Of a stretch of DNA of 64,000 nt, positions 37,077 to 63,396 are shown piece by piece. The DNA is taken from assembly GCF_004365965.1 (NCBI RefSeq), contig NZ_SOEB01000008.1:118016-182015 (forward strand), in the 5' to 3' direction. Source of the DNA: Rhodovulum visakhapatnamense (lineage in GTDB: Bacteria > Pseudomonadota > Alphaproteobacteria > Rhodobacterales > Rhodobacteraceae). The position numbers and the translations under genes were made by a program. Position 1 is the stretch's first letter. Each line of letters opens with the position of its first letter. The notes beneath the pieces were generated by a model. The model had not been told where the DNA came from and did not search any database. It saw only the letters and a program-made list of their open reading frames with translations.

Positions 37077-37175
37077 ATGAGCTGGAAAACCCCCGTCATC
37101 CGCGAAATCGAATGCGGCATGGAAATCAACATGTACGGCCCCGACAGCGGCGAAGACGACGGCGTTCTGTTCTGA
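37077..37175 (+). CDS. pqqA: PQQ precursor peptide PqqA
   Basis: The product is 32 aa: MSWKTPVIREIECGMEINMY then GPDSGEDDGVLF. The Glu and Tyr of the E-I-N-M-Y core (residues 16 and 20) are the two side chains fused into pyrroloquinoline quinone. GGGAGGAG precedes the ATG. It is the substrate of PqqE with the chaperone PqqD. It opens pqqABCDE and lies 116 bp from the end of the IS, so its promoter region is partly IS-flanked. Confidence 0.95.
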   Translation: MSWKTPVIREIECGMEINMYGPDSGEDDGVLF

Positions 37176-37199
37176 TCCGCCGGCGCGCGGAGCGCGACG

Positions 37200-38096
37200 A
37201 TGGCGCTTCGCGCACGCATTCTCGGGGCGGCGGCCGGTGGCGGGCTGCCGCAATGGAATTGCGGCTGTCCGAATTGCCAGGCGGCCCGGGCGGGCCGGAT
37301 TGCGGCCCAGACCCAGTCCTCGCTGGCCGTGACCGGCAACGGGCGGGACTGGGCGGTGCTGAACGCCTCGCCCGATATCCGTCAGCAACTGACCCACTGC
37401 CCGCCCTTGCATCCGACCGGGCTGCGCGACGTGCCGCTTCGGTCCGTTCTTGTGACGAATGGCGATATCGACCATGTGGCGGGGCTTCTGACCCTGCGAG
37501 AGATGCAGCCCTTCGCGCTGATCGCCACCGCCGCGATCCACAAGGTGCTGGACGCCAACCCGATCTTCGGCGCGCTGAAGCCCGGCCTCGTCCGGCGCCA
37601 GACGGTGGCGCTTGGCCGCCCCTTCGCGCTGGCGCCCGGTCTCACGGCCGAGCTTTTCCCGGTGCCGGGCAAGGTCGCGCTTTATCTTGAGGGCGACACG
37701 GTCGAAACCGACCTCGTCGGCGAACAGACCGTCGGCGTCCGGCTGGAGGCAGGCGGAACCGAGGCCTTCTACATCCCCGGTTGCGCCGCGATCCCCCCCG
37801 ATCTGGCGGCCCGGCTGACGGGCGCGGCGCTTGTCTTCTTCGACGGCACGCTCTGGCGCGATGACGAGATGATCCGGGCCGGGCTTGGCGAAAAGACCGG
37901 GCGGCGGATGGGCCATATCTCGATGAGCGGGCCCGAGGGGTCCATCCGGGCCTTCGCCGGGCTCGGCGTGGGACAGAAGGTCTTCGTGCACATGAACAAC
38001 ACCAATCCGGTGCTCGATCCTGCCAGCCCCGAACGGGCCGAGGCAGAGGCGGCGGGCTGGATCGTCGGACAGGATGGACTGGAGATCGTCCCATGA
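37200..38096 (+). CDS. pqqB: PQQ biosynthesis protein PqqB
   Basis: The product is 298 aa of metallo-beta-lactamase fold. AAAGGGLPQWNCGCPNCQAA near the start holds the CxCxxC zinc site typical of PqqB. The NGDIDHVAGLL motif replaces the usual HxHxDH, and GHISMSGPEGSI lies near the end. It is thought to hydroxylate the Glu-Tyr intermediate. It overlaps pqqC by four bases (ATGA). Confidence 0.97.
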   Translation: MALRARILGAAAGGGLPQWNCGCPNCQAARAGRIAAQTQSSLAVTGNGRDWAVLNASPDIRQQLTHCPPLHPTGLRDVPLRSVLVTNGDIDHVAGLLTLREMQPFALIATAAIHKVLDANPIFGALKPGLVRRQTVALGRPFALAPGLTAELFPVPGKVALYLEGDTVETDLVGEQTVGVRLEAGGTEAFYIPGCAAIPPDLAARLTGAALVFFDGTLWRDDEMIRAGLGEKTGRRMGHISMSGPEGSIRAFAGLGVGQKVFVHMNNTNPVLDPASPERAEAEAAGWIVGQDGLEIVP

Positions 38097-38848
38097 ACAC
38101 CCCCGCGACACGCGAGGCCTTCGAGGCACGGCTGCGCCGGATCGGCGCCGAGCGCTATCACGACCTGCACCCGTTTCACGGCCTGCTGCATGGCGGGCAA
38201 TGCAGCCCCGATCAGGTGCGCGCCTGGGTCATCAACCGCTATTACTACCAGTCCCGCATCCCGATGAAGGACGCGGCCTTCCTGTCGCGGGTCGAGGACC
38301 CGGCCCTGCGCCGGGCCTGGCGCTCGCGGATCGAGGATCACGACGGCAGCGAGGACAACGAGGGCGGCATCGCGCGCTGGCTCAGGCTGGCTTCGGCCGT
38401 GGGGCTCGATCCCGATTACGTCGCCTCCTGCGCGGGCGTTTTGCCCGCCACCCGCTTTGCCGTCGATGCCTATGTGCGCTTCGTCCGCGAACGGTCGCTG
38501 CTCGAGGCGGTGGCCTCGTCGCTGACCGAGCTTTTCGCGCCGAAGATCCATGCCGAGCGGATCGAGGGCCTGCTGCGGAACTACGCGTTCGCCGATGACA
38601 GCAGCCTGTCCTATTTCCGCAAGCGCCTGGCCGAGGCGCCGAAGGACGTGGCCTTCGGGCTGGCCTGGGTGCTGGATCATGCCGACACCGCAGACCGTCA
38701 GGACGCCGCCGCCAATGCGCTGATTTTCAAGACCGATGTTCTGTGGTCGCAGCTCGACGCGCTTCATTCCGCCTATGTCGCGCCCGCCCGCATCCCGCCC
38801 GGCGCCTGGCGGCCGGGCGAGGGGCTGGCGCTTGCGCGGGCATCATGA
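38093..38848 (+). CDS. pqqC: Pyrroloquinoline-quinone synthase PqqC
   Basis: The product is 251 aa, all-helical, cofactorless oxidase for the last ring-closing oxidation of PQQ. RYHDLHPFHGLLHGGQCSPD, WVINRYYYQSRIPMKDAAFL, RIEDHDGSEDNEGGIARWLR and YAFADDSSLSYFRKRLAEAP are signature stretches, with the catalytic His/Arg/Tyr set in them. The stop overlaps the pqqD start (ATGA). Confidence 0.98.
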   Translation: MNTPATREAFEARLRRIGAERYHDLHPFHGLLHGGQCSPDQVRAWVINRYYYQSRIPMKDAAFLSRVEDPALRRAWRSRIEDHDGSEDNEGGIARWLRLASAVGLDPDYVASCAGVLPATRFAVDAYVRFVRERSLLEAVASSLTELFAPKIHAERIEGLLRNYAFADDSSLSYFRKRLAEAPKDVAFGLAWVLDHADTADRQDAAANALIFKTDVLWSQLDALHSAYVAPARIPPGAWRPGEGLALARAS

Positions 38849-39123
38849 TCGGGCCCGACGACATTCCCGTCCTGCCGCGCGGCGTGCGTCTGCATCGGGA
38901 CCGGGTGCGTGGCGGCTGGGTGCTGCTGGCGCCCGAACGCACGCTGGCGCTTGACGAGACCGGCCGGGCGATCCTGGCCGAAATCGACGGCATCCGCAGT
39001 TTCGCCGCCATCGCAGCCGCGCTGGCCGCGGCCTATGACGCCCCCGAGGCCGAAATTGCCGCCGACAGCCAGGGCTTTCTGGGCGCGCTCCTCGACCGCC
39101 GCTTTCTGGAGATCCGCCAGTGA
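38845..39123 (+). CDS. pqqD: PQQ peptide chaperone PqqD
   Basis: The product is 92 aa: PVLPRGVRLHRDRVRGGWVL, then LAPERTLALDETGRAILAEI. This is the RRE-type winged helix that binds PqqA and presents it to PqqE. The ATG at 38845 overlaps pqqC by four bases, and the end overlaps pqqE by four (GTGA). An earlier in-frame start within pqqC is not used. Confidence 0.96.
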   Translation: MIGPDDIPVLPRGVRLHRDRVRGGWVLLAPERTLALDETGRAILAEIDGIRSFAAIAAALAAAYDAPEAEIAADSQGFLGALLDRRFLEIRQ

Positions 39124-40205
39124 GTGTCCCGCCCCCCATCGCCATGCTGGCCGAGCTGACCCATCGCTGCCCGCTGGCCTGCCCCTATTGCTCGAATCCG
39201 CTGGAGCTGACCCGGAAAGACAGCGAACTCGACACCGCCGCCTGGGCCGACATCTTCCGGCAGGCGGCCGATCTGGGTGTGCTGCAACTCCACCTCTCGG
39301 GCGGCGAACCCGCCACCCGGCGCGATCTGACGGATCTGGTGGCCGAGGCCCGGGCGGCCGGGCTTTACACCAACCTCATCACCTCCGGCATCGGGCTGAC
39401 CGAAAAGCGGCTGCGCGCGCTCGATGCCGCCGGGCTCGACCATATCCAGCTGTCGCTGCAGGGCACCGATGCCGCCATGGCCGACCGGATCGGCGGCTAT
39501 CACGGCGGGTTCGAGCGAAAGCTCGAGGTCGCGCGGCTGATCGGGCAGATCGGCTTTCCGCTGACCCTGAACGCGGTCCTGCACCGCCAGAACCTGCATC
39601 AGCTGCCGCGTGCCATCGAGATGGGGGTCGAGATGGGCGCGCGGCGGATCGAGGTCGCGACCGTCCAGTTCCATGGCTGGGCGCTGAAGAACCGCGCGGC
39701 ACTGATGCCGACCCGCGCCCAGGCCCGCGCCGCCGATGCCGCCGTGGCCGAGGCCCGTGCCCGGCTGAAGGGTGTGCTGGTCATCGACTATGTCCGGGCC
39801 GATTACCATTCCGACTATCCCAAGCGCTGCATGGGCGGCTGGGGCACGACCGGGCTGAACGTCACGCCCGAAGGCACGGTGCTACCCTGCCATGCCGCCC
39901 AGACCATCCCGGGCCTTGTCTTCGACAGCCTCCGCGACCGTCCGCTGGCCGGGATCTGGTATGAGGGCGCTGCCTTCGCCGCCTATCGCGGCACCGGCTG
40001 GATGCGCGAGCCCTGTTCCGGCTGCGAACGGAAGACCGTCGATTTCGGCGGCTGCCGCTGTCAGGCGATGGCGCTGGCGGGCGATCCGGCGGCGGCCGAC
40101 CCGGTCTGTATCAAGTCGCCGCATCACGCAGCGCTTCTGGCCCGGGCCGAGGCCTTCGCCGCGACGGAGGCGCCCGAAATCCTCTGGCGCGCAGCGGCGG
40201 GCTGA
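39120..40205 (+). CDS. pqqE: PqqA peptide cyclase (radical SAM) PqqE
   Basis: The product is 361 aa. The radical-SAM cluster motif is ELTHRCPLACPYCSNP (CxxxCxxC), with SGGEP near residue 62. The C-terminal SPASM region supplies further Fe-S ligands in KRCMGGWG, VLPCHAA, EPCSGCERKTVDFGGCRCQA. It forms the Glu-Tyr carbon-carbon bond of PqqA. The start is GTG at 39120, coupled to pqqD. It is the last gene of the operon and converges on the PedC-type permease gene 5 bp away. Confidence 0.98.
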   Translation: MSVPPPIAMLAELTHRCPLACPYCSNPLELTRKDSELDTAAWADIFRQAADLGVLQLHLSGGEPATRRDLTDLVAEARAAGLYTNLITSGIGLTEKRLRALDAAGLDHIQLSLQGTDAAMADRIGGYHGGFERKLEVARLIGQIGFPLTLNAVLHRQNLHQLPRAIEMGVEMGARRIEVATVQFHGWALKNRAALMPTRAQARAADAAVAEARARLKGVLVIDYVRADYHSDYPKRCMGGWGTTGLNVTPEGTVLPCHAAQTIPGLVFDSLRDRPLAGIWYEGAAFAAYRGTGWMREPCSGCERKTVDFGGCRCQAMALAGDPAAADPVCIKSPHHAALLARAEAFAATEAPEILWRAAAG

Positions 40206-40210
40206 CCGCC

Positions 40211-40999
40211 TCAGTCCCTCCCCGGTCGGCTGCGCGCCGGGTCGTAGCCCCAGAGCGCCAGCAGGAAGAAGACAAGAAAGCCCGAGGCCACCCAAAACAG
40301 CGCCCAGCCATTCAGGCTTTGATAAAGCGCAAACCGGATCAGCTCGACCGCATGGGTGAAGGGGTTCAACGCGCAGATGTCGCGCAGAAGCCGCGAGCTT
40401 TCGGCCATCTTCCACAGCGGATAAAGCGCGGTCGACAGGAAGAACATCGGGAAGATGACGAAATTCATCACGCCCGCGAAGTTTTCCAGCTGCCGCACGG
40501 TCGACGAGATGAACAGCCCCAAGGCGCCCAGCATCAGCCCGCTGAGAACCAGCGCCGGGAAGGCCCAGAGATAGCCCGCCAGCGGCAGCACGATGCCGAA
40601 ACCGGCCGCGATGGCGAGAAACGCATAGACCTGCAGGATCGACACCGCGACGCCTGCCGTCAGCTTGCAGAACAGCAGCCACCAGCGCGGCAGCGGCGAG
40701 GTCATCAGAAGCCGCATCGACCCCATCTCGCGGTCGTAGACAAGCGACAGCGACGATTGCATCCCGTTGAAAAGCTGGATCATTCCGCAAAGCCCGGGGA
40801 CGATGTAGACCTCGTAGGTGATGTAGGTCTGATAGGGCGGGATGATCGAGAGGCCCAGCGCCGCGCGAAACCCGGCGGCAAAGACCACGAGCCAGACCAG
40901 TGGCCGCACCAGCGCCGAAAGAAACCTTCCGCGCTGATGCAGAAAGCGCAACGCCTCGCGTGCGACGATGGCGCGCAGGGCGGACAGCCAGCCGTTCAT
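40211..40999 (-). CDS. ABC-2 type permease of the quinoprotein-associated ABC system (PedC-like)
   Basis: The product is 262 aa with six membrane segments. YITYEVYIVPGLCGMIQLFN, LVYDREMGSMRLLMTSPLPR, the ABC-2 signature region, and ALNPFTHAVELIRFALYQSL match permeases found with PQQ alcohol dehydrogenases (the family called alcohol ABC transporter permease PedC; LutF in Methylobacterium lanthanide uptake is of this kind). It is the last gene of the seven-gene minus operon and overlaps the ATPase gene by four bases. The substrate is unknown; ABC-2 permeases usually export. Confidence 0.88.
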   Translation of the reverse strand: MNGWLSALRAIVAREALRFLHQRGRFLSALVRPLVWLVVFAAGFRAALGLSIIPPYQTYITYEVYIVPGLCGMIQLFNGMQSSLSLVYDREMGSMRLLMTSPLPRWWLLFCKLTAGVAVSILQVYAFLAIAAGFGIVLPLAGYLWAFPALVLSGLMLGALGLFISSTVRQLENFAGVMNFVIFPMFFLSTALYPLWKMAESSRLLRDICALNPFTHAVELIRFALYQSLNGWALFWVASGFLVFFLLALWGYDPARSRPGRD

Positions 41000-41721
41000 G
41001 CCCCGCCGCCCTCGGCGGTCATCTCCAGAAACGCCTCGGCCAGACCCGCGGGCCCCGCGATGTCAGAGGCCAGAGCCTGCCGCAGCACCCGGCCGCGGTG
41101 CAGCACGACCACATCGTCCCCGGGCCCGATCTCGTCGACCAGATGGGTGGCCCACAGCACGCTCAGCCCGTCCTCGGCCAGATCGTGGACATGCGCGGTG
41201 ATCGCCTTGCGGCTCATCGCATCGAGCCCCACCGTCGGCTCGTCCAGCAGCAAGAGGTCGGGCTCGTGAACCAGCGCGCGGGCAATCTCCATCCGCCGCC
41301 GGTGCCCGCCATTCAGCGCGCGCGCCTTCTCGCCCGCCCGCTCGCGCATCGCCAGCCGGTCGAGCGCCGCGTCGATCCGGATCGCGGCCGCGCGCCCCGA
41401 CAGCCCGTGCAGCGCCGCGAAATAGCGCATGTTGCGCGCCACCGTCAGGTCGAGATCCAACGTCGGCTGCTGGAACACCACGCCGATCCGGGCCAGCGCC
41501 TTGCGCGGCGCGCGGGCGACGTCATGGCCCGCGATCTCGATCCGGCCGCTGCGGGTGACCAGAAGCCGGGTCATCAGCCCGAACAGCGTCGACTTGCCCG
41601 CGCCGTTCGGCCCCAGCAGCGCACAGAACCGCCCCGGTGCGACCGAGAAGGACACATCGTCCAGCGCCTGCCGCGCCCCGTAGGACAGGCTGACATGCTC
41701 CAGCCGCAGCGCCTCGGCCAT
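40996..41721 (-). CDS. ABC ATPase of the quinoprotein-associated ABC system
   Basis: The product is 241 aa. Walker A is GPNGAGKST, the signature LNGGHRRRMEIARAL replaces LSGGQ, Walker B is PDLLLLDEP and the H-loop is ATHLVDE. It matches the ATP-binding subunit family linked to PQQ-dependent alcohol dehydrogenases (LutE-like). The ATG at 41721 shares its A with the stop of the preceding ATPase gene. It pairs with the ABC-2 permease downstream. Confidence 0.9.
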   Translation of the reverse strand: MAEALRLEHVSLSYGARQALDDVSFSVAPGRFCALLGPNGAGKSTLFGLMTRLLVTRSGRIEIAGHDVARAPRKALARIGVVFQQPTLDLDLTVARNMRYFAALHGLSGRAAAIRIDAALDRLAMRERAGEKARALNGGHRRRMEIARALVHEPDLLLLDEPTVGLDAMSRKAITAHVHDLAEDGLSVLWATHLVDEIGPGDDVVVLHRGRVLRQALASDIAGPAGLAEAFLEMTAEGGGA

Positions 41722-42320
41722 CACGCCCCCTCCCGCAGCACGGCCGGCTGGCCGACAAGGACATGGATGCGCGAGGCCAGCCGCTCGGCCTCGGCCCGGG
41801 CATGGGTGACCAGAAGCGTCGCGGGCCGCGCCTCGGCGATCAGCCGTTCGGTCAGGGCCAGCATGGCCGCGGCGGTCTCGGGGTCGAGCGAGGCGAAGGG
41901 TTCGTCCAGCACCAGCGCCTGCGGCCGCCCCGCAAAGGCCCGCGCCAGCGCCAGCCGCCGCTGCTGGCCCAGCGACAGCTGCGCCGGATAGGCCCGGCCC
42001 TTGTCGGTCAGCCCGACACGGGCCAGCATGTCCTGCGCCGCCGCCCGGCTGAGGCCCGGATGCACCAGCCGCAGGTTCTGCAGCGCCGTCCGCCAGGGCA
42101 GCAGGGTCGGTTCCTGAAAGACCATGGCGATGCGCTCGGGGCATTGGACCCGCCCCTCGAAATCGGGATCGAGCCCGGCCACGATCCGCAGAAGCGTCGA
42201 CTTTCCGATCCCCGAGGGGCCAAGCAGGGCGACGGTCTCGCCGGCCGCGATCTGCAGGTCGATCCGGCCCAGCACCTCGGCCGCGCCGAAGCGCTTCGAC
42301 AGAAGATGCAGGCCGATCAT
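41721..42320 (-). CDS. NitT/TauT-type ABC transporter ATPase (short)
   Basis: The product is 199 aa. Walker A is GPSGIGKSTLLRIVAGLDPD, the Q-loop MVFQEPTLLPWRTALQNL is characteristic of the nitrate/sulfonate class, the signature is LSLGQQRRLALARAF and Walker B ALVLDEPFASLD. It is shorter than usual (about 250 aa) at the C-terminus. It energises the permease at 42317-43066 and the binding protein at 43073-44041; these are embedded in the quinoprotein operon. Confidence 0.92.
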   Translation of the reverse strand: MIGLHLLSKRFGAAEVLGRIDLQIAAGETVALLGPSGIGKSTLLRIVAGLDPDFEGRVQCPERIAMVFQEPTLLPWRTALQNLRLVHPGLSRAAAQDMLARVGLTDKGRAYPAQLSLGQQRRLALARAFAGRPQALVLDEPFASLDPETAAAMLALTERLIAEARPATLLVTHARAEAERLASRIHVLVGQPAVLREGA

Positions 42321-43066
42321 GCCGCGCGCCAGCGCCGGATGCGGCGTTCCCAGGGTTGCAGCAGCAGCCATTCGACCGCCAGCATCACCACGACGAAGGA
42401 CAGCGCATAGACCAGCACCATCGTCACGTCGAACAGCTGGAAATACAGGTGAATCTGGAACCCGATCCCGTCCGATCGGCCCAGAAACTCGACCACCAGA
42501 ACGATTTTCCAGATTACCGCGATGCCCGAGCGCGCCGCCGCCACGATGAAGGGCGCCAGCTGCGGCAACACCACATGGCGCAGCCGCGCCAGCCCCGGCA
42601 TCCGGTAGACCCGGGCCATGGCGTCCAGATCGCGCGACAGCGCCCGCGCGCCCTCGCGGATCACGGTCGTCACCTGCGGGATCTTGTTCAGCGTCACCGC
42701 CACGATCGCCGCGGTTTCGGTCAGCCCGATCCAGAGATAGCAGAGCACGATCAAAACCAGCGCGGGCAGGTTCAGGAACACCACCAGCCAGGGGTCGAGC
42801 CAGCGGTCGAGCCGCGGCAGACGCCCCATCGCCAGCCCCAGCGCGAGCCCCAGCCCCATCGCCAGACAGAAGGCCCAGGCCACCCGGATCAGCGTCCGGC
42901 CCAGATGATAGGGCAACTCGCCCGACCGGATCGCTTCGGCAAGGGGTTCGGCCAGCGCCCAGGGAAAGGGCAGGATCTGCGCATCGGCCGTCAGCGCGGC
43001 CGCCCCCGCCCAAAGCGCAAAAAGCCCCAGGATCGAGACAAGGGGCACGACGATCCGGTCCGGCAT
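42317..43066 (-). CDS. NitT/TauT-type ABC transporter permease
   Basis: The product is 249 aa with about six membrane segments. The EAA-like loop is GARALSRDLDAMARVYRMPG followed by LARLRHVVLPQLAPFIVAAA, as in SsuC/TauC permeases. It overlaps the ATPase gene by four bases (ATGA) and lies 6 bp after the binding-protein gene. Substrate not deducible. Confidence 0.92.
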   Translation of the reverse strand: MPDRIVVPLVSILGLFALWAGAAALTADAQILPFPWALAEPLAEAIRSGELPYHLGRTLIRVAWAFCLAMGLGLALGLAMGRLPRLDRWLDPWLVVFLNLPALVLIVLCYLWIGLTETAAIVAVTLNKIPQVTTVIREGARALSRDLDAMARVYRMPGLARLRHVVLPQLAPFIVAAARSGIAVIWKIVLVVEFLGRSDGIGFQIHLYFQLFDVTMVLVYALSFVVVMLAVEWLLLQPWERRIRRWRAA

Positions 43067-43072
43067 CGCGGC

Positions 43073-44041
43073 TCACTCGACCACGGCGAAGGTGCCCTCG
43101 GGCAGCGTCGTCGCCTCCCCCACCAGATCGGCGCCGCCAAGCTCGGCCATCAACCTGAGAAGACGGTCGGCGGCCTCGGGCGCGACATTGCCGGGCGCGG
43201 GAACGCCCGCCCGCCAGTCTGCCCGCAACGCCTCGAACTCGGCGTCGGTCCCGGCGTTCATCAGCGGCCGGATCTCGTCCCAGGCGGCATCGTCGGTTGC
43301 CAGCAGGTCCTTGGCATCCCGCGAGGCCGCGTAAAGCGCGCGGTCGATCCCGGGATGGGCCGCGATGAAATCCTCGTCCAGCACGTAGGCCAGAAGCGGC
43401 GTCCCCGGGTCGAGCCCGAGCGCGGTCGAGGCCTCCGAGACCGAAACCAGTTCGCGCATGCCGCCCGCGCGCATCTTGGCGAGGAAATGCCAGAAGTTGA
43501 TCGCGCCCTGCAGATCGCCCGACCTCCCGGCCTTGAAGATTAGCGGCGGCGCGCCGAAGACCTGTTCGGTCGCGGCCTCCAGGTCCATCCCGTATTCGGC
43601 CTGCGCATAGGCGCGCAGGATCAGCCAGGACTTGTCCAGAGGCCCGCCCGCAATGCCGATCTTGCCGCCCGCCAGATCGGCCAGCGTTTCGGCATCGCTG
43701 TTCGCGGGCACCACCAGACCGCCCACCGCGGTGGAATAGGGGATCGCCACATAGGGCCGGCCCGCGGCGCGCTGGCGCGCGACCCAGATCCAGTCGGCGA
43801 CCATCGTCTCGGCCGCGCCGCCCTCGAAAGCGACCCGGGTCGCGCCATTGTCGGCATAGGGCGCCAGCACCAGCTCGAACCCATGCGCCCGGTCGAAGCC
43901 ATGGGCCTTGATCGTCTCAAGCTCCCAGGTCACGGTGCCGATCTTCAGCACCGCCGCGCGCAGTTGCGGCAGATCCTCGGCCCGGGCCGGCCCCAGAAAG
44001 GCCAGAACCGCCAGCGCCACGCCGGTCAGTCGTTTCAGCAT
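43073..44041 (-). CDS. NitT/TauT-type ABC substrate-binding protein
   Basis: The product is 322 aa with signal peptide MLKRLTGVALAVLAFLGPARA. LKIGTVTWELETIKAHGFDR and AHGFELVLAPYADNGATRVA resemble NMT1/SsuA-type binding proteins, then DWIWVARQRAAGRPYVAIPY and LAGGKIGIAGGPLDKSWLIL. It acts in the periplasm. Its position inside an operon devoted to quinoprotein function suggests a substrate needed for that system (a metal chelate, a cofactor or an alcohol-derived compound), but the sequence does not say which. Confidence 0.9.
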   Translation of the reverse strand: MLKRLTGVALAVLAFLGPARAEDLPQLRAAVLKIGTVTWELETIKAHGFDRAHGFELVLAPYADNGATRVAFEGGAAETMVADWIWVARQRAAGRPYVAIPYSTAVGGLVVPANSDAETLADLAGGKIGIAGGPLDKSWLILRAYAQAEYGMDLEAATEQVFGAPPLIFKAGRSGDLQGAINFWHFLAKMRAGGMRELVSVSEASTALGLDPGTPLLAYVLDEDFIAAHPGIDRALYAASRDAKDLLATDDAAWDEIRPLMNAGTDAEFEALRADWRAGVPAPGNVAPEAADRLLRLMAELGGADLVGEATTLPEGTFAVVE

Positions 44042-45060: not shown

Positions 45061-45078
45061 GTCCATTCCCTTCCGCCC

Positions 45079-55432: not shown

Positions 55433-56068
55433 ATGCGGACCATTGCGACGATGGCGGCCGTGCTGGGGGCGCTTTGCGGGGCGTTGCCCGCGGCGGCGGC
55501 CGATTTCTCGGACCCGACCTGGCCCTGCATCCAGCGCAAGATCGACCGGCTTTCGCCGGGCCTGATGTGGCCCGAACCGATCGACCCCGAGGGGCTCGCC
55601 GCCCTCGCCCCCGAGACCCGCGCGACCGTGACCGATCTTGCCGCCCGGCTCGCGCTCCGGCGGCTCTCGCTTGAAGACCTCGGCCCGCAGGTGGCGCAGT
55701 TCGCAGCCGCGCAGGCGGCCGGTCCCGACCTGATGGGGCTTCTGTTCCAGGCCAGCTTCGACCGGCTCGCCGCCCAGCGCCGCACCATCATGAAAGGGAT
55801 CCAATCCTACGCGCTGAAACAGACCGCGCTTGCCGAACGGATCGACGCGGCGCGCACCGAGATGGACGCGGCAATGGCGGCAGAGCCACCCGATTACGAC
55901 CGCGCCGACAGTCTGGAGGAGCAGATCGCCTGGGACGAGCGCATCTATACCGACCGGCAGAAATCGCTGACCTATGTCTGCGAAACGCCGGTGCTGCTGG
56001 AAAAGCGGCTTTACGCCATCGCGCAGATGCTGCAGGCGGCTGCGGTCACTCCCACTCCATCTCGGTGA
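55433..56068 (+). CDS. Secreted protein of unknown function in the formaldehyde region
   Basis: The product is 211 aa with signal MRTIATMAAVLGALCGALPA. The mature part begins ADFSDPTWPCIQRKIDRLSP; a long helical part RRTIMKGIQSYALKQTALAE leads to LTYVCETPVLLEKRLYAIAQ. Two Cys could form a disulfide. GGGAGGATC precedes the ATG at 55433; the frame extends upstream without a ribosome site. I do not recognise the family. It diverges from adhI, and its end overlaps the convergent metallohydrolase gene by 23 bp. Confidence 0.75.
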   Translation: MRTIATMAAVLGALCGALPAAAADFSDPTWPCIQRKIDRLSPGLMWPEPIDPEGLAALAPETRATVTDLAARLALRRLSLEDLGPQVAQFAAAQAAGPDLMGLLFQASFDRLAAQRRTIMKGIQSYALKQTALAERIDAARTEMDAAMAAEPPDYDRADSLEEQIAWDERIYTDRQKSLTYVCETPVLLEKRLYAIAQMLQAAAVTPTPSR

Positions 56069-57086
56069 AGGCCACGGTCGCGTTCCGCGCATTGAAGGCA
56101 TCGAACAGACGCCAGCGCCCGCGTTCTTCCGCGGCGATATGGCCGACCGCGTCGCCGAGCCGTTCGCCTTTCGCGACGGCCGCCCGCGCATCCCGCGCCA
56201 GAACCTCCAGATAGCGCGCGGTCGCGGCCCCGCCTGCGGGCCAGGGCAGCACCGGCCCGCCATGGCCGGGCACGACCAGGGAGGCACCGTCTTGCCTCAT
56301 CTCTTCCAGCACCGCGGCCCAGCCCCGCACCGTGCCGTCAAGCGCGGGCAGATGACCGTCGAAGACCAGATCGCCCGCGAAAAGCACGCCGCTTGCGCTG
56401 TCGAGAACGGTCACGTCGGTGCCGCTATGGGCAGGCGGCCAGGCTCGAAGCCGCAACACCCGCCCGCCAAGATCGATCTCGGCCTCGCCCGAGACCGCGC
56501 GGCCGACCGGCGGCGGGACGGTACCGATCAGGGCCGCAGGCCCGATCAGCCGGCCGAGACTGTCGAGATAGCCCGCCTGCCGGTCGGCCAGCGCGCGCGC
56601 CAGCCCCGCATGGGCCACCACCATGGCCCCGGCCTCGGTCAGGGCCGTGGCCCCGAAGACATGATCGGGATGCACATGGGTCAGGATCACATGGCTGACC
56701 GGCAGCGCGGTCCGCGCCCGGATCGCCCGCCAGACCGCCTCGCCGATCCAGCGCGCCGAGCCGCTGTCGATCACCGCGACCGAGCGTGTGCCGATCACAA
56801 CGGCGATATTGGCAATGTCGCCAAGGTTGCCCCGATCGGCCTCGGCCACCTCGCCCCGATGCACCAGAACCCCCGGCGCGATCTCGTCGAAGGCCAACTC
56901 GGGCCCCGCCTCCCGGCACCGCGGCGGCCCGTCCGCCACAAGCTCCGGCCCCCCGGTGACCCCGGACACCGCCGCCAGCGCCGCGCGGCAGTCCTCAACC
57001 TTGGCAGCCCAGATCCCGGGCAGCGCCACCTCGCGGCACATCTCGCGCGACAGCGCCAGGCACAGCGTCACGACCGCCTCGAACAT
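56046..57086 (-). CDS. Quinoprotein relay system metallohydrolase (SoxH-like, MBL fold)
   Basis: The product is 346 aa. The full metal-site set is visible: HVHPDH in VILTHVHPDHVFG, His in VVAHAGLAR, Asp in VLFAGDLVFDGHLPA and the last His in LVVPGHGGPVLPW. Residues 1-75 form an extra N-terminal part with paired Cys (SREMCREV, KVEDCRAA). This fits the SoxH-related zinc hydrolases that accompany PQQ dehydrogenases and SoxYZ-like carriers. GGGAGGGGGC precedes the ATG at 57086. It diverges from SoxYZ-like copy 2, its likely partner. Confidence 0.9.
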   Translation of the reverse strand: MFEAVVTLCLALSREMCREVALPGIWAAKVEDCRAALAAVSGVTGGPELVADGPPRCREAGPELAFDEIAPGVLVHRGEVAEADRGNLGDIANIAVVIGTRSVAVIDSGSARWIGEAVWRAIRARTALPVSHVILTHVHPDHVFGATALTEAGAMVVAHAGLARALADRQAGYLDSLGRLIGPAALIGTVPPPVGRAVSGEAEIDLGGRVLRLRAWPPAHSGTDVTVLDSASGVLFAGDLVFDGHLPALDGTVRGWAAVLEEMRQDGASLVVPGHGGPVLPWPAGGAATARYLEVLARDARAAVAKGERLGDAVGHIAAEERGRWRLFDAFNARNATVAFTEMEWE

Positions 57087-57224
57087 GCCCCCTCCCTGCC
57101 GATGCGTCCCGACACCGATCCTGCCCGATCCCGCAGGCGTGATCGACACCGACCATTGGCCGATGGGCAGAGCCCTGCCGCTATGGCATCCTCATCCGTA
57201 TCTCATGCGGAAAGGGAGGTTCCC

Positions 57225-58040
57225 ATGAAGACCGTCATCGCCGCGGCGCTGGCCGCGCTGGCCGCCATGCCCGCAACCGCCGAAGACAGCCCCCGCGACA
57301 ACCCGCTGACCGCAAGCCCGGTCTGGGACGAGATCCGGCCGCAGATCCTGGGCCAAGGCGCGACGCTCGCCGAAGGCCCCGCGCCCTTCGAAATCGAGGC
57401 CCCCTACCGCGCCGAAGAGGCCGCGACCGTCCCGATCCGGATCCGCCAGACCGACCCCGAGGCGCATATCGCCCGCGCCCGCCTGGTGATCGACGAAAAC
57501 CCGATGCCGCTGGCCGCCGACATCGTCTTCGGCCCGGCCATGGCGCCGCTTGACCTCGAGCTTCGGGTGCGCGTCAACCAGTATTCCAACGTCCGGGTGA
57601 TTGCCGATACCGGAACCGGCCTCTTCATGGACGGCCGCTTCGTCAAGGCCTCGGGCGGCTGCTCGGCCCCGGCCAGCAAGAGCCCCGATCTGGCGCTGGC
57701 CGATATCGGCCGGATGCGGCTCAAGCCCTTCGCCGACACAGCCCCCGCGCTTTCGACACCCCGGCGCGAGGCCCAGATCATGATCCGCCACCCGAACTAT
57801 TCCGGCCTGCAGCGCGATCAGGTGACCCAGCTCTTCATCCCGCCGCTCTATCTCGACCGGATCGAGGTGCGTCAGGGCGGCGAGCTTCTGTTCCGCGTCG
57901 AGGGCGGCATCTCGATCAGCGAAAACCCGGTCTTCCGCTTTTCCTATGCCGACAATGGCGCCCCCAGCCTGCATGTCCGGGCCGAGGACACCGACGGCCA
58001 TGTCTTCGAACAGGATCTGCCGAAAGACGGCCAGATCTGA
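57225..58040 (+). CDS. Quinoprotein dehydrogenase-associated SoxYZ-like carrier, copy 2
   Basis: The product is 271 aa with signal MKTVIAAALAALAAMPATAE. The carrier Cys is in FVKASGGCSAPASKSPDLAL and is the only Cys of the mature protein. The SoxZ-like half reads IMIRHPNYSGLQRDQVTQLF. AAAGGGAGG lies before the ATG. It resembles copy 1 (48392-49198) along its whole length, but the carrier arm (SGGC) is closer to SoxY. It diverges from the SoxH-like hydrolase. Confidence 0.9.
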   Translation: MKTVIAAALAALAAMPATAEDSPRDNPLTASPVWDEIRPQILGQGATLAEGPAPFEIEAPYRAEEAATVPIRIRQTDPEAHIARARLVIDENPMPLAADIVFGPAMAPLDLELRVRVNQYSNVRVIADTGTGLFMDGRFVKASGGCSAPASKSPDLALADIGRMRLKPFADTAPALSTPRREAQIMIRHPNYSGLQRDQVTQLFIPPLYLDRIEVRQGGELLFRVEGGISISENPVFRFSYADNGAPSLHVRAEDTDGHVFEQDLPKDGQI

Positions 58041-58049
58041 TCCCCACTC

Positions 58050-58070: not shown

Positions 58071-58163
58071 CCGCCGGAGGCGCCGCGCGCCCGGCGCGCG
58101 GCCCGGCCCAACGCCGGACAAGCGGGGCGAAGCCCCGTGCAGGCCGGGGGCGGGAGCCCGCCC

Positions 58164-58526
58164 TCACTCGAAACAGACGATCTCGGCCTCGGCCTGGGCG
58201 CGGCGCAGCTCGGCCACGAAGGCCCGGGCCGTGGGCGCGGTCCGGAACATCGACATCCGCTCGCCCCCCACCTGCTGCAGCGACAGCACGGTCTCGGCCT
58301 CGACATAGGCCTCGTAAGGCAGGATCGACGCGATGGTGTCGATCGAACAGGCGCATTTCTGCAGCACGTCGTGCCCCTGCCCGTTTACGGCCATGCAGGC
58401 AAAGACGTAATCGGCCCGGACGGCGGTCGGATAGTCGTTCAGCGCGGCCACCACATCCTCGGCCGCCGCCGACCCGGCCGACCCGGTGCCCAGCGCCACC
58501 GCCAGAAGAAACACCGCCCGCCTCAT
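58164..58526 (-). CDS. Small secreted Cys-containing protein of the quinoprotein locus
   Basis: The product is 120 aa with signal MRRAVFLLAVALGTGSAGSA. The mature part has ADYVFACMAVNGQGHDVLQK, CACSIDTIASILPYEAYVEA and ends EAEIVCFE, with four Cys. Similar small proteins occur with methanol dehydrogenase loci, but I cannot name a function. Its ATG overlaps the stop of the upstream gene by four bases, so they are coupled. It closes the operon that starts with the LuxR regulator. Confidence 0.8.
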   Translation of the reverse strand: MRRAVFLLAVALGTGSAGSAAAEDVVAALNDYPTAVRADYVFACMAVNGQGHDVLQKCACSIDTIASILPYEAYVEAETVLSLQQVGGERMSMFRTAPTARAFVAELRRAQAEAEIVCFE

Positions 58527-59203
58527 TGCCCCGGCTCCGCTGCGGGCTCTGTCAGGGTCAGCCGCGCGGCATAGGCCGCGCCCCCGGCCCCGGGGACCGT
58601 GGCCGAGAGGCTGCGATACCAGCCCGGCACCGCGTCCGAGACCGTCACCGCGATCTCCATATCCGCAAAGGCGCCCATCCGGGCGCGCGCCGGATCGGCC
58701 TCGAACGGATGCAGCACCACCACCTCGGCCGCCACTTCACCCGCGCCCCAGGACGCGCGCACCGGTCGCCGTTCGGCCGGGCGCATCAGGGCCTCCTTCA
58801 GGCGGTTGCGGATGTAGAACGGGCTGCCGCCCATCGTCCGGGCCATGTCGCGCACGACGCTCTCGACGAAGTACATCGCGACCGGGTTGCCGACCCCGGC
58901 CGGAAAGCTGCCGATGGCGCGAAACCGCTCGCCCTCGATCAGCCGGAGATCGGCCGTGTCGGGCGCGCCGGGCGGAAAGACCAGCCGCAGCTCTCCGGTC
59001 TCGGCCGCCGCCTCCCCCGGCAGGGCGTCGTTCTGAACCGACCGCCGATAGACCAGCCCCTCGTTGCGCGACACCCCGTCAAGCGTGCCGGTCCGGAAGA
59101 TCAGGTCATAGGCCTCGCCGGGCGCCGTATCGGCCGCAAACAGGGCGCTTGCAGCCCCCGCCAGCAAAAGCCCGGCCAGAAGACCCACCATCCTGCTGCG
59201 CAT
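58523..59203 (-). CDS. Secreted protein of unknown function in the sensor operon
   Basis: The product is 226 aa with signal MRSRMVGLLAGLLLAGAASA. The mature part includes PGEAYDLIFRTGTLDGVSRN, ELRLVFPPGAPDTADLRLIE, NPVAMYFVESVVRDMARTMG and AEVVVLHPFEADPARARMGA. It looks like a beta-rich periplasmic protein. GGGAGGACG precedes the ATG at 59203; an in-frame start at 59254 would overlap the kinase gene. It is 47 bp downstream of the hybrid kinase and may be an output or periplasmic partner. Family not recognised. Confidence 0.8.
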   Translation of the reverse strand: MRSRMVGLLAGLLLAGAASALFAADTAPGEAYDLIFRTGTLDGVSRNEGLVYRRSVQNDALPGEAAAETGELRLVFPPGAPDTADLRLIEGERFRAIGSFPAGVGNPVAMYFVESVVRDMARTMGGSPFYIRNRLKEALMRPAERRPVRASWGAGEVAAEVVVLHPFEADPARARMGAFADMEIAVTVSDAVPGWYRSLSATVPGAGGAAYAARLTLTEPAAEPGQ

Positions 59204-59250
59204 CGCCCGTCCTCCCTCTGCCACCGAGCCTAGCCGCGCGGCCCTGCCTG

Positions 59251-61497
59251 TCACGCCAGACTTTCGTCGGCCATGACCGGCGCGCCCGCCCGCAAGGTCC
59301 GGCCGATCAGCGGCCGGAGCCGCACCAGATCGACGGGCTTTCGCAGCACCGCAAAGCCCCGGTCCGCCGCGATCCGCGGCAGGGCCTCGCTGACATCGGC
59401 GGTGATCATGATCGCCGGAACCCTCACGCCCGCGGCACGGCGTAGCGCGTCGATGGCGAGGACGCCATTGTCCTCGCCATCAAGCTGATAGTCGGCCAGA
59501 ATCAGGTCGGGGGCCATGCCGATCTCGGCCACGAGGCCCAGCGCCCCGGCGGTCGAGCGCGCGGCCAGCACCCCGGCCCCCCAGGATTCAAGCGCGCGCG
59601 TCATGGCAAAAAGCACGTCGCTGTCGTTTTCGACCGCCAGAACGAGCACCCCGTCGATCCCGTCGCCCGCACCGCCTGCCCGCTCGTCGCAGCCCGTCCG
59701 GCAGACCGCCTCTGGCGGCTCCACCCGATCAAGCGCGATCGAGAAGACCGACCCCACCCCCGGGGCCGAGCGGACGCTTAGATCGTGGCCCAGATGCCGG
59801 CAAGTCCGTTCGACGATGGACAGGCCCAACCCCATGCCCGAGCCCGGTGGCACGTTGCCTGCCCGGGTGAACTCCTCGAAGATCCGCGTCTGATCCTCGC
59901 TGGAAATGCCGATCCCGGTATCCCAGACCTGCAAAAGCGCCCGGCCGCCGCGGCGGCGGCAGCCGACCAGAACCCGGCCGGTTTCGGTATACTGGATCGC
60001 GTTCACCAGAAGGTTCTGCAGCGACCGCATCAGGAATTGCGGATCGCTCTCGACCCAGAGTGCGGCCGGGATCACATCGAGCCGGATGCCCTTTTCGGCC
60101 GCGACCATCGCGTAATCCTCGCCCAGCGCCCGCATGATCGGCCCCAGACAGACCGGCCCCGGCGTCAGCGCCGCCCCGGTGCTTTCCAGCCGCGACAGAT
60201 CCAGCAGCGCCCGCAAAAGCGATTCCATCGAGGCAAACGAGCCCTGCAGACGCTCGACCATCGGCTCGAGCCCGCTGCCACGCGCGCTGTCGCGCAGCGT
60301 CGAGATCATCAGCTTGGCGGCATTGACCGGCTGCAGCAGATCGTGGCTCGCGGCGGCAAGAAACCGCGTCTTCGAACTCATCGCAGCCTCAAGCTCGGCC
60401 TTGGCCTGGCGCAGCTCTTCCTCGACCCGGGTCTGAACCGCATGCTGGTCGCGCAGCCGCCGGTTGGCTTCGGTCAGCTCGAAGGTGCGTTCCTCGACCC
60501 GCTTTTCCAGCACCTCGGTCGCCCGCGATTCCAGCGTCACATCCGAGATGTCGGCCAGAAAGCCCCGATCGGGCAAGAGATGCACATGCAGATCCAACAC
60601 CCGGCCGCTTGCATGCCGCAGACGCCGGCGCAGCTGGCCCTCTGCCCGCAGCCGCGTCAGCCAGAGGTCGATATCGGCAATGTCGGCCTCGGCGACCAGA
60701 CGGTTCTCTTTTACATGGCGCAGGATCTGCCCGAAAGTCGTGCCGTCCTGCACCAGCGTATAGGGCAGCGCCAGCAGCTCGCGGAACCGGCCGTTCCGGA
60801 TCGTGACCTCGCCCGTCCGGGAAAAGGTGCAAATCCCCAGCGTCATGTGATCGAAGGCGGCCTGCAGGTAATGCGCCTGCATGTCGATCAGCAGATCCTT
60901 TTCCATCCGGTTCTTGCGGACGATGTCGGTGATCTCGGTCTGGGTCAGGATCAGGTTGTCCGACCGGGTGCGCTGCCGCGCGATCTGGAACCAGCGGTCG
61001 CCCTGCAATTCCAGCACGAAGGTCAGACTCGCCCCATCGGCCGTGCGTCGGGTGATCGCCTCGGCCAGATCGCGGCAGGCGCGGTCGGGATCGGCCAGGG
61101 CCCGGCTTGACTGCACCGCGCGGAAATAGTCCTCGACCGTCAGGCCGGGCAGGATGCGGGCGGAAATATCGGGCAGGATAGACTTGAAAAGGTCGTTGCA
61201 GACCTGCAGCCGCCCTTCGTGGAACAGCGCGAACCCGCCTTCCATCGCATCGAGCGCCTCGCTCAGCCGCAGGCGGGTCTCTTCGCGGTCGACCCGGGCG
61301 CGCTCAAGCTCGGTCGATGTCCGTTCCAGATCGCGGGTCTTGGCCCAGACCTGCCCCTGCAGCGCGACCGCCGACTGGAAAAGCCCGTATGCGCTACCGC
61401 CCATGTCGTGCTGGCGGTTGCTGCGCCGGATCAGCGCGTCGATGATACGCGCCTGCCGCGCGATGATGACCTCCGGCGGCTCGTCCGGGTCGATCAT
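59251..61497 (-). CDS. Cytosolic PAS hybrid histidine kinase (FlhS-like)
   Basis: The product is 748 aa without membrane segments. Coiled coil at about residues 40-85, two PAS-like domains (near SEALDAMEGGFALFHEGRLQ and AFDHMTLGICTFSRTGEV), a second coiled coil, then HisKA with FLAAASHDLLQPVNAAKLMI. The ATPase domain has NLLVNAIQYTETG, VWDTGIGISSED and GMGLGLSIVERTC. A C-terminal receiver follows (VLAVENDSDVLFAMTRALES, DLILADYQLDGEDNG, LRKPVDLVRLRP). In Paracoccus and Rhodobacter such kinases (FlhS, RfdS) control formaldehyde/methanol oxidation. The ATG overlaps the FIST gene stop by four bases. Confidence 0.9.
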   Translation of the reverse strand: MIDPDEPPEVIIARQARIIDALIRRSNRQHDMGGSAYGLFQSAVALQGQVWAKTRDLERTSTELERARVDREETRLRLSEALDAMEGGFALFHEGRLQVCNDLFKSILPDISARILPGLTVEDYFRAVQSSRALADPDRACRDLAEAITRRTADGASLTFVLELQGDRWFQIARQRTRSDNLILTQTEITDIVRKNRMEKDLLIDMQAHYLQAAFDHMTLGICTFSRTGEVTIRNGRFRELLALPYTLVQDGTTFGQILRHVKENRLVAEADIADIDLWLTRLRAEGQLRRRLRHASGRVLDLHVHLLPDRGFLADISDVTLESRATEVLEKRVEERTFELTEANRRLRDQHAVQTRVEEELRQAKAELEAAMSSKTRFLAAASHDLLQPVNAAKLMISTLRDSARGSGLEPMVERLQGSFASMESLLRALLDLSRLESTGAALTPGPVCLGPIMRALGEDYAMVAAEKGIRLDVIPAALWVESDPQFLMRSLQNLLVNAIQYTETGRVLVGCRRRGGRALLQVWDTGIGISSEDQTRIFEEFTRAGNVPPGSGMGLGLSIVERTCRHLGHDLSVRSAPGVGSVFSIALDRVEPPEAVCRTGCDERAGGAGDGIDGVLVLAVENDSDVLFAMTRALESWGAGVLAARSTAGALGLVAEIGMAPDLILADYQLDGEDNGVLAIDALRRAAGVRVPAIMITADVSEALPRIAADRGFAVLRKPVDLVRLRPLIGRTLRAGAPVMADESLA

Positions 61498-62687
61498 GCC
61501 AGCCCCCGGGTGCGGGGCTCGAAGAAAGCGACGCCGACAAAGGTCTGGTTCACATGCACCCCGCAATGCTGTTCGCCATAGGTGTTGAAGCCCAGCACCC
61601 GGTGGCGGCGCAGGATCTCGGAAGCCGGGGCGGTCAGCTGCTTCTGCCCGATCTCGAGCTTTCGCAGGAAGCAGTCGAAGCCCAGGATGAAGTCCGGCGC
61701 CCGCCCGGCCGCGTCGGTCACAGCAAGCTCCTCCTCGAGCGTCCGCAGGATCTCGCGCCCGCGCCCGAGCGTCAGCAAAAGCCCGTCATCGATTGCCGAC
61801 AGGAACGAAAGCGCCCCGGTCTCGGCCACCTTCTGGATCGCCCGCACATGGTAGATCGAATTGTTGCGCACCAGCACCGGATGTTCGGCAAAGACCTGCG
61901 GGCTGAGCGCCTCGACCGGACAGCCGACGAGCCGGGCATATTCCTTGGCCGCGGGCGCCCCGTTCAGTTCCAGCACCAGCCGCTCCTCGGGCACGGCGTC
62001 GGTCACCACCATCAGGTGTTCGGTCGGCAGGAAATGGTCGAAGCCGAGCCCGCGAAAGTCCAGATCGGTCTCGATCAGCACCAGAAGGGCGGCATCACGG
62101 TGCAGCGCCCCGTCCTGCAGGATCGCGGTTTCCCGGAACCGCAGCGCATCGGCGGCCGACCCGCCGAAGACCGGCACATCCTCGAGCCCCGCCGCAAGCG
62201 CCGTGACCAGCAGGTCTTCCTGCTTGGAGAGGCCATCCGCGAAGATCAGCGCCAGCCGGTTCCATTGCGCGCTATGGGCGAATTGCGCAGCCAGGCGGCG
62301 GGCCTCGGCCGAAACCTGTTCGATGGAAAACGGCGAGAGCGGGCTGATCAGCCGGGTCGCACAGCGGAAATGGGCGCGCGGAAAGGCCAACAGCAGCAAC
62401 GCGTCGTCCTCGTAGCCCTCGGGCGTGATCTGCCCGGCCGAGCTGCATCCGAAGACGGGCAGGCCCGGCAGTTGCCGCGCCAGCGCTTCGGCCAGCGGCG
62501 CGCGCGCCAGCCGATCGGGAATGAAGGCCAGCACGAACCGCGCCTGGCTCCGGTTGATCTGTGCCGCCGCCTCGGCCGCGGCACGCGCCGGGTCGGCGGT
62601 GCGCGACAGCCCGACACCAAGGGTTCCGGACCCGGATCCGGCCGCGGCGCCATCCCGGACGCTACTGGCTGAGGAAGGCCCGGGCAT
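61494..62687 (-). CDS. FIST-domain signal-sensing protein
   Basis: The product is about 397 aa. The FIST_N part has LPGLPVFGCSSAGQITPEGY, FADGLSKQEDLLVTALAAGL and DVPVFGGSAADALRF; the FIST_C part has ELNGAPAAKEYARLVGCPVE, ILGFDCFLRKLEIGQKQL and VLGFNTYGEQHCGVHVNQTF. FIST proteins bind small ligands and feed them into signalling. The start is ambiguous: 62687 has GGAGG close upstream, 62714 lies deeper in the regulator gene. It is translationally coupled to the kinase and lies just after the LuxR regulator. Confidence 0.88.
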   Translation of the reverse strand: MPGPSSASSVRDGAAAGSGSGTLGVGLSRTADPARAAAEAAAQINRSQARFVLAFIPDRLARAPLAEALARQLPGLPVFGCSSAGQITPEGYEDDALLLLAFPRAHFRCATRLISPLSPFSIEQVSAEARRLAAQFAHSAQWNRLALIFADGLSKQEDLLVTALAAGLEDVPVFGGSAADALRFRETAILQDGALHRDAALLVLIETDLDFRGLGFDHFLPTEHLMVVTDAVPEERLVLELNGAPAAKEYARLVGCPVEALSPQVFAEHPVLVRNNSIYHVRAIQKVAETGALSFLSAIDDGLLLTLGRGREILRTLEEELAVTDAAGRAPDFILGFDCFLRKLEIGQKQLTAPASEILRRHRVLGFNTYGEQHCGVHVNQTFVGVAFFEPRTRGLA

Positions 62688-63396
62688 CGGCCTCCGAGAA
62701 CCCCGCTCCGACATCGACGGCGGCGCTTTCGATCAGCACCGCTGCCTGGGTCCGGTTCTGCACCCCAAGCCGACGCAACAGCGCTGTGATATGCGCCTTG
62801 ACGGTCGCCTCGGCCAGCGAAAGTTCATAGGCGATCTGCTTGTTGGGCTTGCCCGCGCAAATCAGCCGCATGATGCGGGCCTGCTGCGGTGTCAGTTCGG
62901 CAATGCGGCGACCGATTTCCTGAGCGCTGGCAGCGCGCGGCGCCCGCATCGCCGACCGGCAGGCCCGGCGATAGGCCAGCGGCAGATACCGGTTGCCGAC
63001 GCGGATCTCGGCCAGGGCCAGTCTGAGATCGTCGATCGAGGCATCTTTGGGGACGAACCCAGCCGCACCGCCGTCCATCAGAGCGGTCACCACCTCGACC
63101 GAGGTCAGCGCCGAAATCACCAGGATCGGCACCTGCGGCAGACGCTCGCGCAGCCGGGCAAAGCCGCTGATCCCGGCCACATCGGGCAGCTTGAGGTCCA
63201 GCATCACCAGATCCGGCAAGAACCCAGATCCAAGCGCCCCAAGACCCTCGGCGAGCGTCGTGGCGGTCCGGATCTCTGCATCGGGAAAAGCATGCCGAAG
63301 GGCGACGGCAAGCGCATCGGAATAGAGTGGGTGATCATCGACGACCAGAACGCACTCTATGGCCGCCAATGCCGGCGCAACCGGTTCATGGCTCAT
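62662..63396 (-). CDS. NarL/LuxR-type response regulator (FlhR-like)
   Basis: The product is 244 aa. The receiver has VLVVDDHPLYSDALAVAL, phospho-Asp in LVMLDLKLPDVAG, VISALTSVE and the Lys in GFVPKDAS. The helix-turn-helix is LTPQQARIMRLICAGKPNKQ and IAYELSLAEATVKAHITALL. With the kinase and the FIST protein it forms a three-gene signalling operon at the end of the methanol/formaldehyde locus. By analogy with FlhSR it should activate adhI-fghA and xox/pqq genes (inference). Confidence 0.92.
   Translation of the reverse strand: MSHEPVAPALAAIECVLVVDDHPLYSDALAVALRHAFPDAEIRTATTLAEGLGALGSGFLPDLVMLDLKLPDVAGISGFARLRERLPQVPILVISALTSVEVVTALMDGGAAGFVPKDASIDDLRLALAEIRVGNRYLPLAYRRACRSAMRAPRAASAQEIGRRIAELTPQQARIMRLICAGKPNKQIAYELSLAEATVKAHITALLRRLGVQNRTQAAVLIESAAVDVGAGFSEADARAFLSQ

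Follow-up and report, generated by a model that had tools for sequence, protein, structure and literature searches.

In a 64,000-nucleotide stretch of the Rhodovulum visakhapatnamense genome (contig NZ_SOEB01000008.1, positions 118,016 to 182,015; called the window below), gene calling and family scans revealed 30 contiguous genes grouped around xoxF, running from pqqA to a response regulator gene (37077-63396), and co-inheritance divides their products into two layers. A supply kernel follows lanthanide-type pyrroloquinoline quinone (PQQ)-dependent alcohol dehydrogenases (PQQ-ADHs) generally and a shell follows XoxF, as seen in the six families that were profiled. XoxF is a widespread lanthanide enzyme, and this cluster bears on how it obtains metal and PQQ and how it matures in the periplasm. 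Taken as a whole, the stretch probably combines XoxF, XoxG and XoxJ with PQQ synthesis, glutathione-linked formaldehyde oxidation, a Lut/Ped-type lanthanide importer, PqqT-type recovery of PQQ and an exported, mostly Cys-bearing shell that would service XoxF. The cluster is well preserved and of a type already known, and what it offers as a new lead are two XoxF-linked families without a name, designated u243 and u120, while PqqT-type transport inside a lanthanide operon is a likely assignment.

One set of 196 genomes from the order was screened for XoxF or other PQQ-ADHs and for LutA, PqqT, the FIST-domain sensor, fused SoxYZ, u120 and u243, with SoxH2, CXXCW, DUF3280, SRPBCC, XoxJ, XoxG, both beta-propellers and u211 lying outside this profile. 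Three classes were distinguished: genomes with a XoxF at least 78% identical to the window protein (n=29), genomes with other PQQ-ADHs only (E<=1e-80, n=40) and genomes with neither (n=127). LutA/PedA1 was found in 29/29, 39/40 and 2/127 genomes of these classes, respectively, the FIST sensor in 28/29, 39/40 and 26/127, and PqqT in 19/29, 27/40 and 0/127. Fused SoxYZ above the cut-off was present in 28/29, 5/40 and 0/127, a count that omits matches below the cut-off, many of them interrupted by a stop codon, as separate soxY and soxZ genes would be. u120 and u243 were each detected in 28 of the 29 XoxF genomes and in none of the 40 or the 127 others, and the single XoxF genome lacking u120 is also the one lacking u243 (G290). 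Within five genera of mixed XoxF state (g145, g152, g162, g164, g213), both families come and go with XoxF, G290 being the exception. An extra Asp two residues past the catalytic Asp (D-x-D) is the mark of lanthanide PQQ dehydrogenases. When one PQQ-ADH was read from each of the 27 genomes with PqqT and without XoxF, D-x-D was found in all 27 (WD[YF]DG in 26 and FDHDG in one; the reading leaves aside the second ADH of G298 and of G304). PqqT and an ADH lay on one fetched stretch in 25 of these genomes, and lutE and lutF accompanied PqqT on its stretch in 27/27. Thus, the D-x-D motifs together with the class counts define a general supply kernel and a XoxF-specific shell, and separate the parts serving lanthanide PQQ dehydrogenases generally from those going with XoxF.

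The original prediction, which had suggested such profiling, described a contiguous supercluster that could define the complete parts list of a XoxF system. Every element it named is present in an unbroken run of 30 genes whose order recurs in relatives, and of the six accessory families profiled SoxYZ, u243 and u120 indeed track XoxF. The XoxF supercluster therefore stands, but not as a single XoxF parts list, because LutA, FIST and the second transport system follow PQQ-ADHs generally. Nor is the list complete: a further family, u150, could not be found in the window although it occurs in 66/80 of the relatives' loci, u150 and a second lutA reside on another contig (C19), and PqqT is absent from 10/29 XoxF genomes. 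These loci were collected by a contig scan with the PqqT-like protein, of which the best 80 of 433 were taken, with fetched stretches of at most 10 kb on each side. The cluster order recurs in large part across them, with xoxF in the stretch in 61, lutA or lutE plus lutF in 75 and either xoxF or those in 76, many stretches being too short to include the remainder of a cluster.

XoxF of the window is likely a lanthanide-dependent methanol-oxidising enzyme, as its sequence suggests. It is the sole PQQ alcohol dehydrogenase detected in the 4.43-Mb source genome of 80 contigs (E<=1e-60), and carries the lanthanide-type D-x-D motif, a site at which a MxaF-like protein (L128) reads DYAG, together with a vicinal Cys pair present in 65/65 loci. 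Such conserved-residue counts use the best match per locus, SoxYZ matches below 44% and XoxF matches below 70% identity having been dropped.

Two interleaved ATP-binding cassette (ABC) systems form part of the cluster. For the inner set (41721-44041), which resembles an SsuABC or NMT1 importer, the binding protein (97% identical to its Rhodovulum kholense counterpart) matches 9b1u/9b1v in PDB with E=6.4e-59 over residues 27-316, with 9ooz aligning alike, and among PDB sequences at E<=1 no SsuA, TauA or ThiY structure was found but PqqT alone. Its Lys137, kept in 113/113 loci, aligns with K115 of the PDB chain, which is probably K142 of PqqT, the Lys at the PQQ site, provided that the signal peptide has 27 residues. 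The available text of PMC12828617 names K142 of PqqT, and it is through this source that 9B1V was identified as the crystallised PQQ-binding protein PqqT. The ATPase of the system shares the locus with the PqqT-like protein in 80/80 loci and the permease in 76/80; in Phaeobacter, the permease (56% identical) lies near pqqE, apart from PqqT and the ATPase, and in Deinococcus roughly 7 kb separates the three PqqT-type ABC genes from a PQQ dehydrogenase gene. Hence, the inner system is predicted to be of PqqT type and to recover PQQ. The outer set (40211-41721 and 44077-46263) exceeds the cut-offs of TIGR03861, TIGR03863, TIGR03864 and TIGR03866, the PedA1A2BC/Lut families. By analogy with relatives whose mutants, in the accessible parts of the reports, require Lut and PedA1A2BC for lanthanide use (PMC7391723, PMC6839425), this system likely imports lanthanide. 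The view that the joint mechanism of the accessory families is undescribed was therefore too strong, since the ABC/propeller set belongs to lanthanide importer families already published in these two sources, as far as their available text goes, and the second binding protein is closest to PqqT. With PqqT as the only PDB match of the latter, it is likely that one of the two ABC systems brings in lanthanide and the other recovers PQQ, and profile and matches thereby name a likely PQQ transporter inside a lanthanide operon.

Regarding the lut genes elsewhere, the xox loci read in L013, L014, L015, L018, L024 and L049 contain neither lutA nor its propeller and retain pqqT, together with lutE and lutF except in L049. 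Loss of LutA from Rhodovulum euryhalinum and the others was considered and dismissed, as a search of each of the six entire genomes located LutA outside the xox locus. The second lutA of the source genome (contig C19, 65720-66772; L112, about 5963-8800) comes with a propeller of its own (79% identical to the first), with u150 and with a PepSY-like protein, and no lutE, lutF or PQQ dehydrogenase match was found in the 18 kb read there. Next to lut or pqqT genes, small proteins of PepSY type turn up repeatedly (L165, 26568-26819; L019, 9559-9834, judged by eye; L177, about 10738), and lanpepsy, a lanthanide-binding PepSY protein, is a possible relative.

No Pfam or NCBIfam model matches u120 or u243. 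Protein searches covered the best 120 of 531, 3570 and 3504 matches. The four cysteines of u120 are invariant in 34 aligned sequences (window, 29 of the 120 matches listed and four loci), the u243 alignment comprises the window, 34 of the 120 matches listed and four loci, and both models omit those four loci. The name HdeA/HdeB chaperone, which some records give to u120, was rejected, as no such Pfam match appeared for its 34 members among families listed at E<=1. In Azoarcus, the gene run reads xoxF-xoxG-xoxJ-u243-u120-SoxH2-SoxYZ. Invariant cysteines mark seven exported accessory proteins: in every locus read they are kept in SoxYZ1, SoxYZ2, CXXCW, DUF3280 (as CxxC), SoxH2 and u211, and likewise in u120 within its alignment. 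A thiol-based role in servicing or maturing XoxF would be likely for these exported proteins.

The kernel consists of LutA with its propeller and LutEF, of PqqT along with the ATPase and permease of its system, and of the response regulator, FIST sensor and kinase; the XoxF layer comprises fused SoxYZ, u243 and u120 from the profile, with the unprofiled SoxH2, CXXCW and DUF3280 as neighbours. For the biochemistry we infer the following steps. XoxF would need PQQ in the periplasm at the same time as Ln3+, and each of the interleaved ABC operons would deliver or recapture one of the two. An exported thiol relay would then either mature XoxF, acting on its C126-C127 pair or protecting PQQ, or carry aldehyde as a thioester for hydrolysis by SoxH2, with service and maturation of XoxF being favoured. 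Here u243 may be a carrier or holder resembling LolA, with u120 as its four-cysteine helper. We tentatively propose, as a possibility short of even chances, that u243 and u120 are a helper pair dedicated to the lanthanide methanol dehydrogenase, forming a thiol relay with SoxYZ and SoxH2 that serves XoxF alone among PQQ enzymes, by maturing or protecting it, and that is fed by the twin ABC systems for metal and PQQ. Both families stand out as first knock-out targets.

Several other explanations need to be weighed. Import of a sulfonate, a thiamine precursor or another NMT1-type ligand by the inner ABC system would agree with the similarity of its ATPase and permease to models of sulfonate and similar importers and of its binding protein to NMT1/THI5, with a Halococcus relative near a xanthine dehydrogenase family gene, and with G160 and G161 (loci L040 and L052), where the system occurs and no XoxF-like enzyme was detected at 1e-60. 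However, all NCBIfam scores shown are below cut-off, the PDB search pointed to PqqT and to none of the sulfonate- or thiamine-type structures, and the system is missing from every order-level genome without a PQQ-ADH, which makes an import of this kind very unlikely in place of PQQ recovery. In G160, a genome search gave no LutA match either, and the PqqT-type ABC genes of G160 and G161 could possibly be PQQ scavengers or a system for another ligand. It is also unlikely that u243 and u120 belong to a signalling operon, providing periplasmic input for the kinase in place of a service to XoxF. The pair comes after the kinase gene in eight of the ten relatives' stretches with a tblastn match to u120 (L043, L073, L122, L123, L125, L126, L151 and L177, not L124 and L127), or after the response regulator where the kinase is of HAMP type (Haematobacter, Paracoccus), and u243 gave a fold match to the periplasmic stress sensor RseB, among others. 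Nevertheless, the 39 genomes with FIST relatives among those with other ADHs alone all lack u243 and u120, and in Azoarcus the pair lies behind xoxJ and not behind a regulator.

For the thiol proteins, a periplasmic copy of the glutathione route can be envisaged, in which SoxYZ, SoxH2 and CXXCW carry aldehyde, formaldehyde on the SoxYZ Cys becoming a formyl thioester that SoxH2 releases as formate. This is consistent with the one Cys kept by SoxYZ (53/53 and 7/7 loci) and the metallohydrolase ligands kept by SoxH2 (7/7), with the greater frequency of fused SoxYZ beside XoxF than beside other PQQ-ADHs, and with Azospirillum, where u120, SoxYZ and SoxH2 adjoin fae, mch and other one-carbon genes. 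Against such carriage, the product of AM1 XoxF1 is formaldehyde and not formate according to the available text of PMC6414531, cytoplasmic formaldehyde genes lie within the same cluster, and Pseudomonas putida has SoxYZ, SoxH and rhodanese with PedE/PedH; we regard it as improbable. Equally doubtful is that the thiol set exists for the vicinal disulfide of quinoprotein dehydrogenases, as a ped-cluster review proposes, in the part available, when it ties PP_2666, PP_2677 and PP_2678 to enzymes with adjacent cysteines (PMC12997753). Although the pair is universal in XoxF of the loci counted, CC is also present in all 12 non-XoxF ADHs aligned, with the Deinococcus enzyme and the MxaF-like L128 among them, yet only 5/40 genomes with non-XoxF ADHs alone have fused SoxYZ. 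Adjacent cysteines alone therefore do not predict SoxYZ, and within the order XoxF is the better predictor.

Some observations weigh against this two-layer scheme and the helper role. The Fisher test for u120 (XoxF versus other ADHs, P=1.7e-18) overstates independence, as the profiled genomes are related. At class level, among genomes with XoxF of at least 64% identity, u120 was found in 6/8, with G007 and G122 lacking it; in G111 both u120 and u243 are present, but neither a XoxF at 1e-60 nor any further part within 20 kb was found; in Candidatus Thiodictyon, the 28 kb read groups u243 and u120 with SoxYZ, PqqT and lut genes but contains no xoxF; and in Microvirga, XoxF and u120 are present while u243 went unmatched over 34 kb read. 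Structure searches with u120 gave no convincing match. The LutF-type permease is related to DrrB-like exporters, which is odd for an importer, and the failure to find PqqT in ten XoxF genomes means that PQQ recovery is optional. P. putida is not known to have a XoxF. The available text of PMC12997753 places its SoxYZ, SoxH and rhodanese in the ped cluster and reports a minimal effect of their disruption without lanthanide. With SoxYZ accompanying PedE/PedH there, the rule linking SoxYZ to XoxF is therefore not universal.

The coordinates of the genes are collected in Table 1. Among the regulators, the cluster had been credited with its own sensor, but the FIST protein is not exclusive to it, with relatives in 93/196 genomes, following PQQ-ADHs broadly without being confined to them; relatives of at least 51% identity occur in 16 genomes, all of them XoxF genomes. 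Its designation as NosP was discarded because its score is below the cut-off. The FIST open frame overlaps the end of the response regulator gene and several close relatives show one in-frame TGA within the match, and the true start is probably near 62534. The kinase and response regulator presumably correspond to FlhSR. Such a pair, FlhS/FlhR of Paracoccus denitrificans, responds to formaldehyde (PMC8879981, available text). Just upstream of pqqA, short transposase-like open frames (36514-36897, judged by eye) may be what is left of an insertion sequence at the edge of the island.

Table 1. Genes of the xoxF cluster, in window coordinates
Feature	Position	Strand	Evidence
pqqA, PQQ precursor peptide, 32 amino acids, E16/Y20 spacing kept	37077..37175	+	TIGR02107 34.2 bits, cut-off 20
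pqqB, pqqC, pqqD, pqqE	37200..40205	+	TIGR02108, TIGR02111, TIGR03859, TIGR02109 above cut-offs
PedC/LutF-type ABC permease	40211..40999	-	TIGR03861 433.6 bits, cut-off 241.35
PedB/LutE-type ATPase	40996..41721	-	TIGR03864 341.6 bits, cut-off 302.25
ATPase, predicted PqqT-type ABC system	41721..42410	-	SsuB-like, below curated cut-off of each of 25 families shown
Permease, predicted PqqT-type ABC system	42317..43066	-	SsuC-like, below cut-offs
PqqT-like periplasmic binding protein	43073..44041	-	PDB matches at E<=1: 9b1u/9b1v (E=6.4e-59), 9ooz
PedA2-type beta-propeller	44077..45066	-	TIGR03866 509.4 bits, cut-off 287.3
LutA/PedA1-type binding protein	45079..46263	-	TIGR03863 458.7 bits, cut-off 413.6
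DUF3280 exported protein, invariant CxxC	46388..46912	+	PF11684 163.2 bits; C99, C102 in 55/55 loci
SRPBCC exported protein	46925..47467	+	PF10604 117.9 bits
Second beta-propeller, YncE-like	47436..48392	+	PF21783 64.8 bits, cut-off 27.1
SoxYZ-like carrier 1 (SoxYZ1), one conserved carrier Cys	48392..49198	+	TIGR04557 150.4 bits, cut-off 140; C139 in 53/53 loci
CXXCW rhodanese-like protein	49208..49759	-	TIGR03865 218 bits, cut-off 128.05; C131, C135 in 67/67 loci
xoxJ	49756..50598	-	TIGR03871 286.5 bits, cut-off 212.15
xoxG, c-type cytochrome	50582..51112	-	TIGR03874 247.9 bits, cut-off 161.75
xoxF, PQQ methanol dehydrogenase, lanthanide-type Asp	51201..53009	-	TIGR03075 775.8 bits; D320/D322, C126-C127
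fghA, S-formylglutathione hydrolase	53321..54157	-	TIGR02821 418.8 bits, cut-off 281.7
Glutathione-dependent formaldehyde dehydrogenase	54169..55281	-	TIGR02818 606.3 bits, cut-off 543.95
u211, exported, no family above cut-off	55433..56068	+	C32 conserved in 13/13, C183 in 12/12 loci
SoxH2, quinoprotein relay zinc metallohydrolase 2	56046..57149	-	TIGR04559 356.2 bits, cut-off 280; H158, H160, H163 in 7/7 loci
SoxYZ-like carrier 2 (SoxYZ2)	57225..58040	+	TIGR04557 257.5 bits, cut-off 140; C146 in 7/7 loci
u120, XoxF-linked exported protein, four invariant Cys (C44, C58, C60, C118)	58164..58526	-	no Pfam/NCBIfam family
u243, XoxF-linked exported protein, putative LolA/LppX-like half-barrel in fold model	58523..59254, start likely 59191	-	
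Hybrid histidine kinase, NahK/ErcS-like	59251..61566	-	NF041832 336.1 bits, below cut-off 400
FIST-domain sensor, NosP-like	61494..62714, start likely 62534	-	PF08495, PF10442; NF041558 362.6 bits, below cut-off 450
LuxR-type response regulator, ErdR-like	62662..63396	-	NF041830 155.9 bits, below cut-off 390

A literature search, with subscription papers largely outside it, found no publication that profiles these accessory families or places PqqT in XoxF clusters. Of the xoxF5 clusters, xoxFGJ and the formaldehyde part have been described in Paracoccus aminophilus (PMC4543880) and, in the available text of PMC5934484, in the roseobacter strain La 6 and Rhodobacter sphaeroides. Those of Sinorhizobium meliloti, Salipiger and other Rhodobacterales have most of the window's genes arranged alike, with u243, u120, PqqT and the ATPase of the PqqT-type system among them; the S. 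meliloti stretch gave no match to SRPBCC, the second propeller or SoxYZ1, and that of Salipiger abyssi none to lutE, lutF or the second permease. S. meliloti is reported to grow on methanol through XoxF in a lanthanide-dependent manner (PMC12628762). Of the three XoxF places in Methylobacterium bullatum, the one read holds a stand-alone copy, and no xoxG or xoxJ is annotated beside XoxF of the Methylorubrum extorquens CM4 plasmid pCMU01.

The P. putida ped cluster shares with the window PedA1A2BC, a PQQ-ADH, NosP/NahK/ErbR-type regulators, SoxYZ, SoxH and rhodanese (PMC12997753, PMC6839425, available parts), but has PedE/PedH in place of XoxF, and Table 1 of PMC12997753, within the portion of that source at hand, shows no PqqT-type ABC, u243 or u120. 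In M. extorquens AM1, orf6 and orf7 (META1p1746 and META1p1747), which are needed only with La, may be counterparts of u243 and u120. As given in the available text of PMC7391723 and PMC12124388, M. extorquens shares xoxFGJ, the LutA/LutE/LutF transporter, PqqT and pqq genes with the window, but differs in that xox1 and lut are at separate loci, together with lanmodulin and a TonB receptor.

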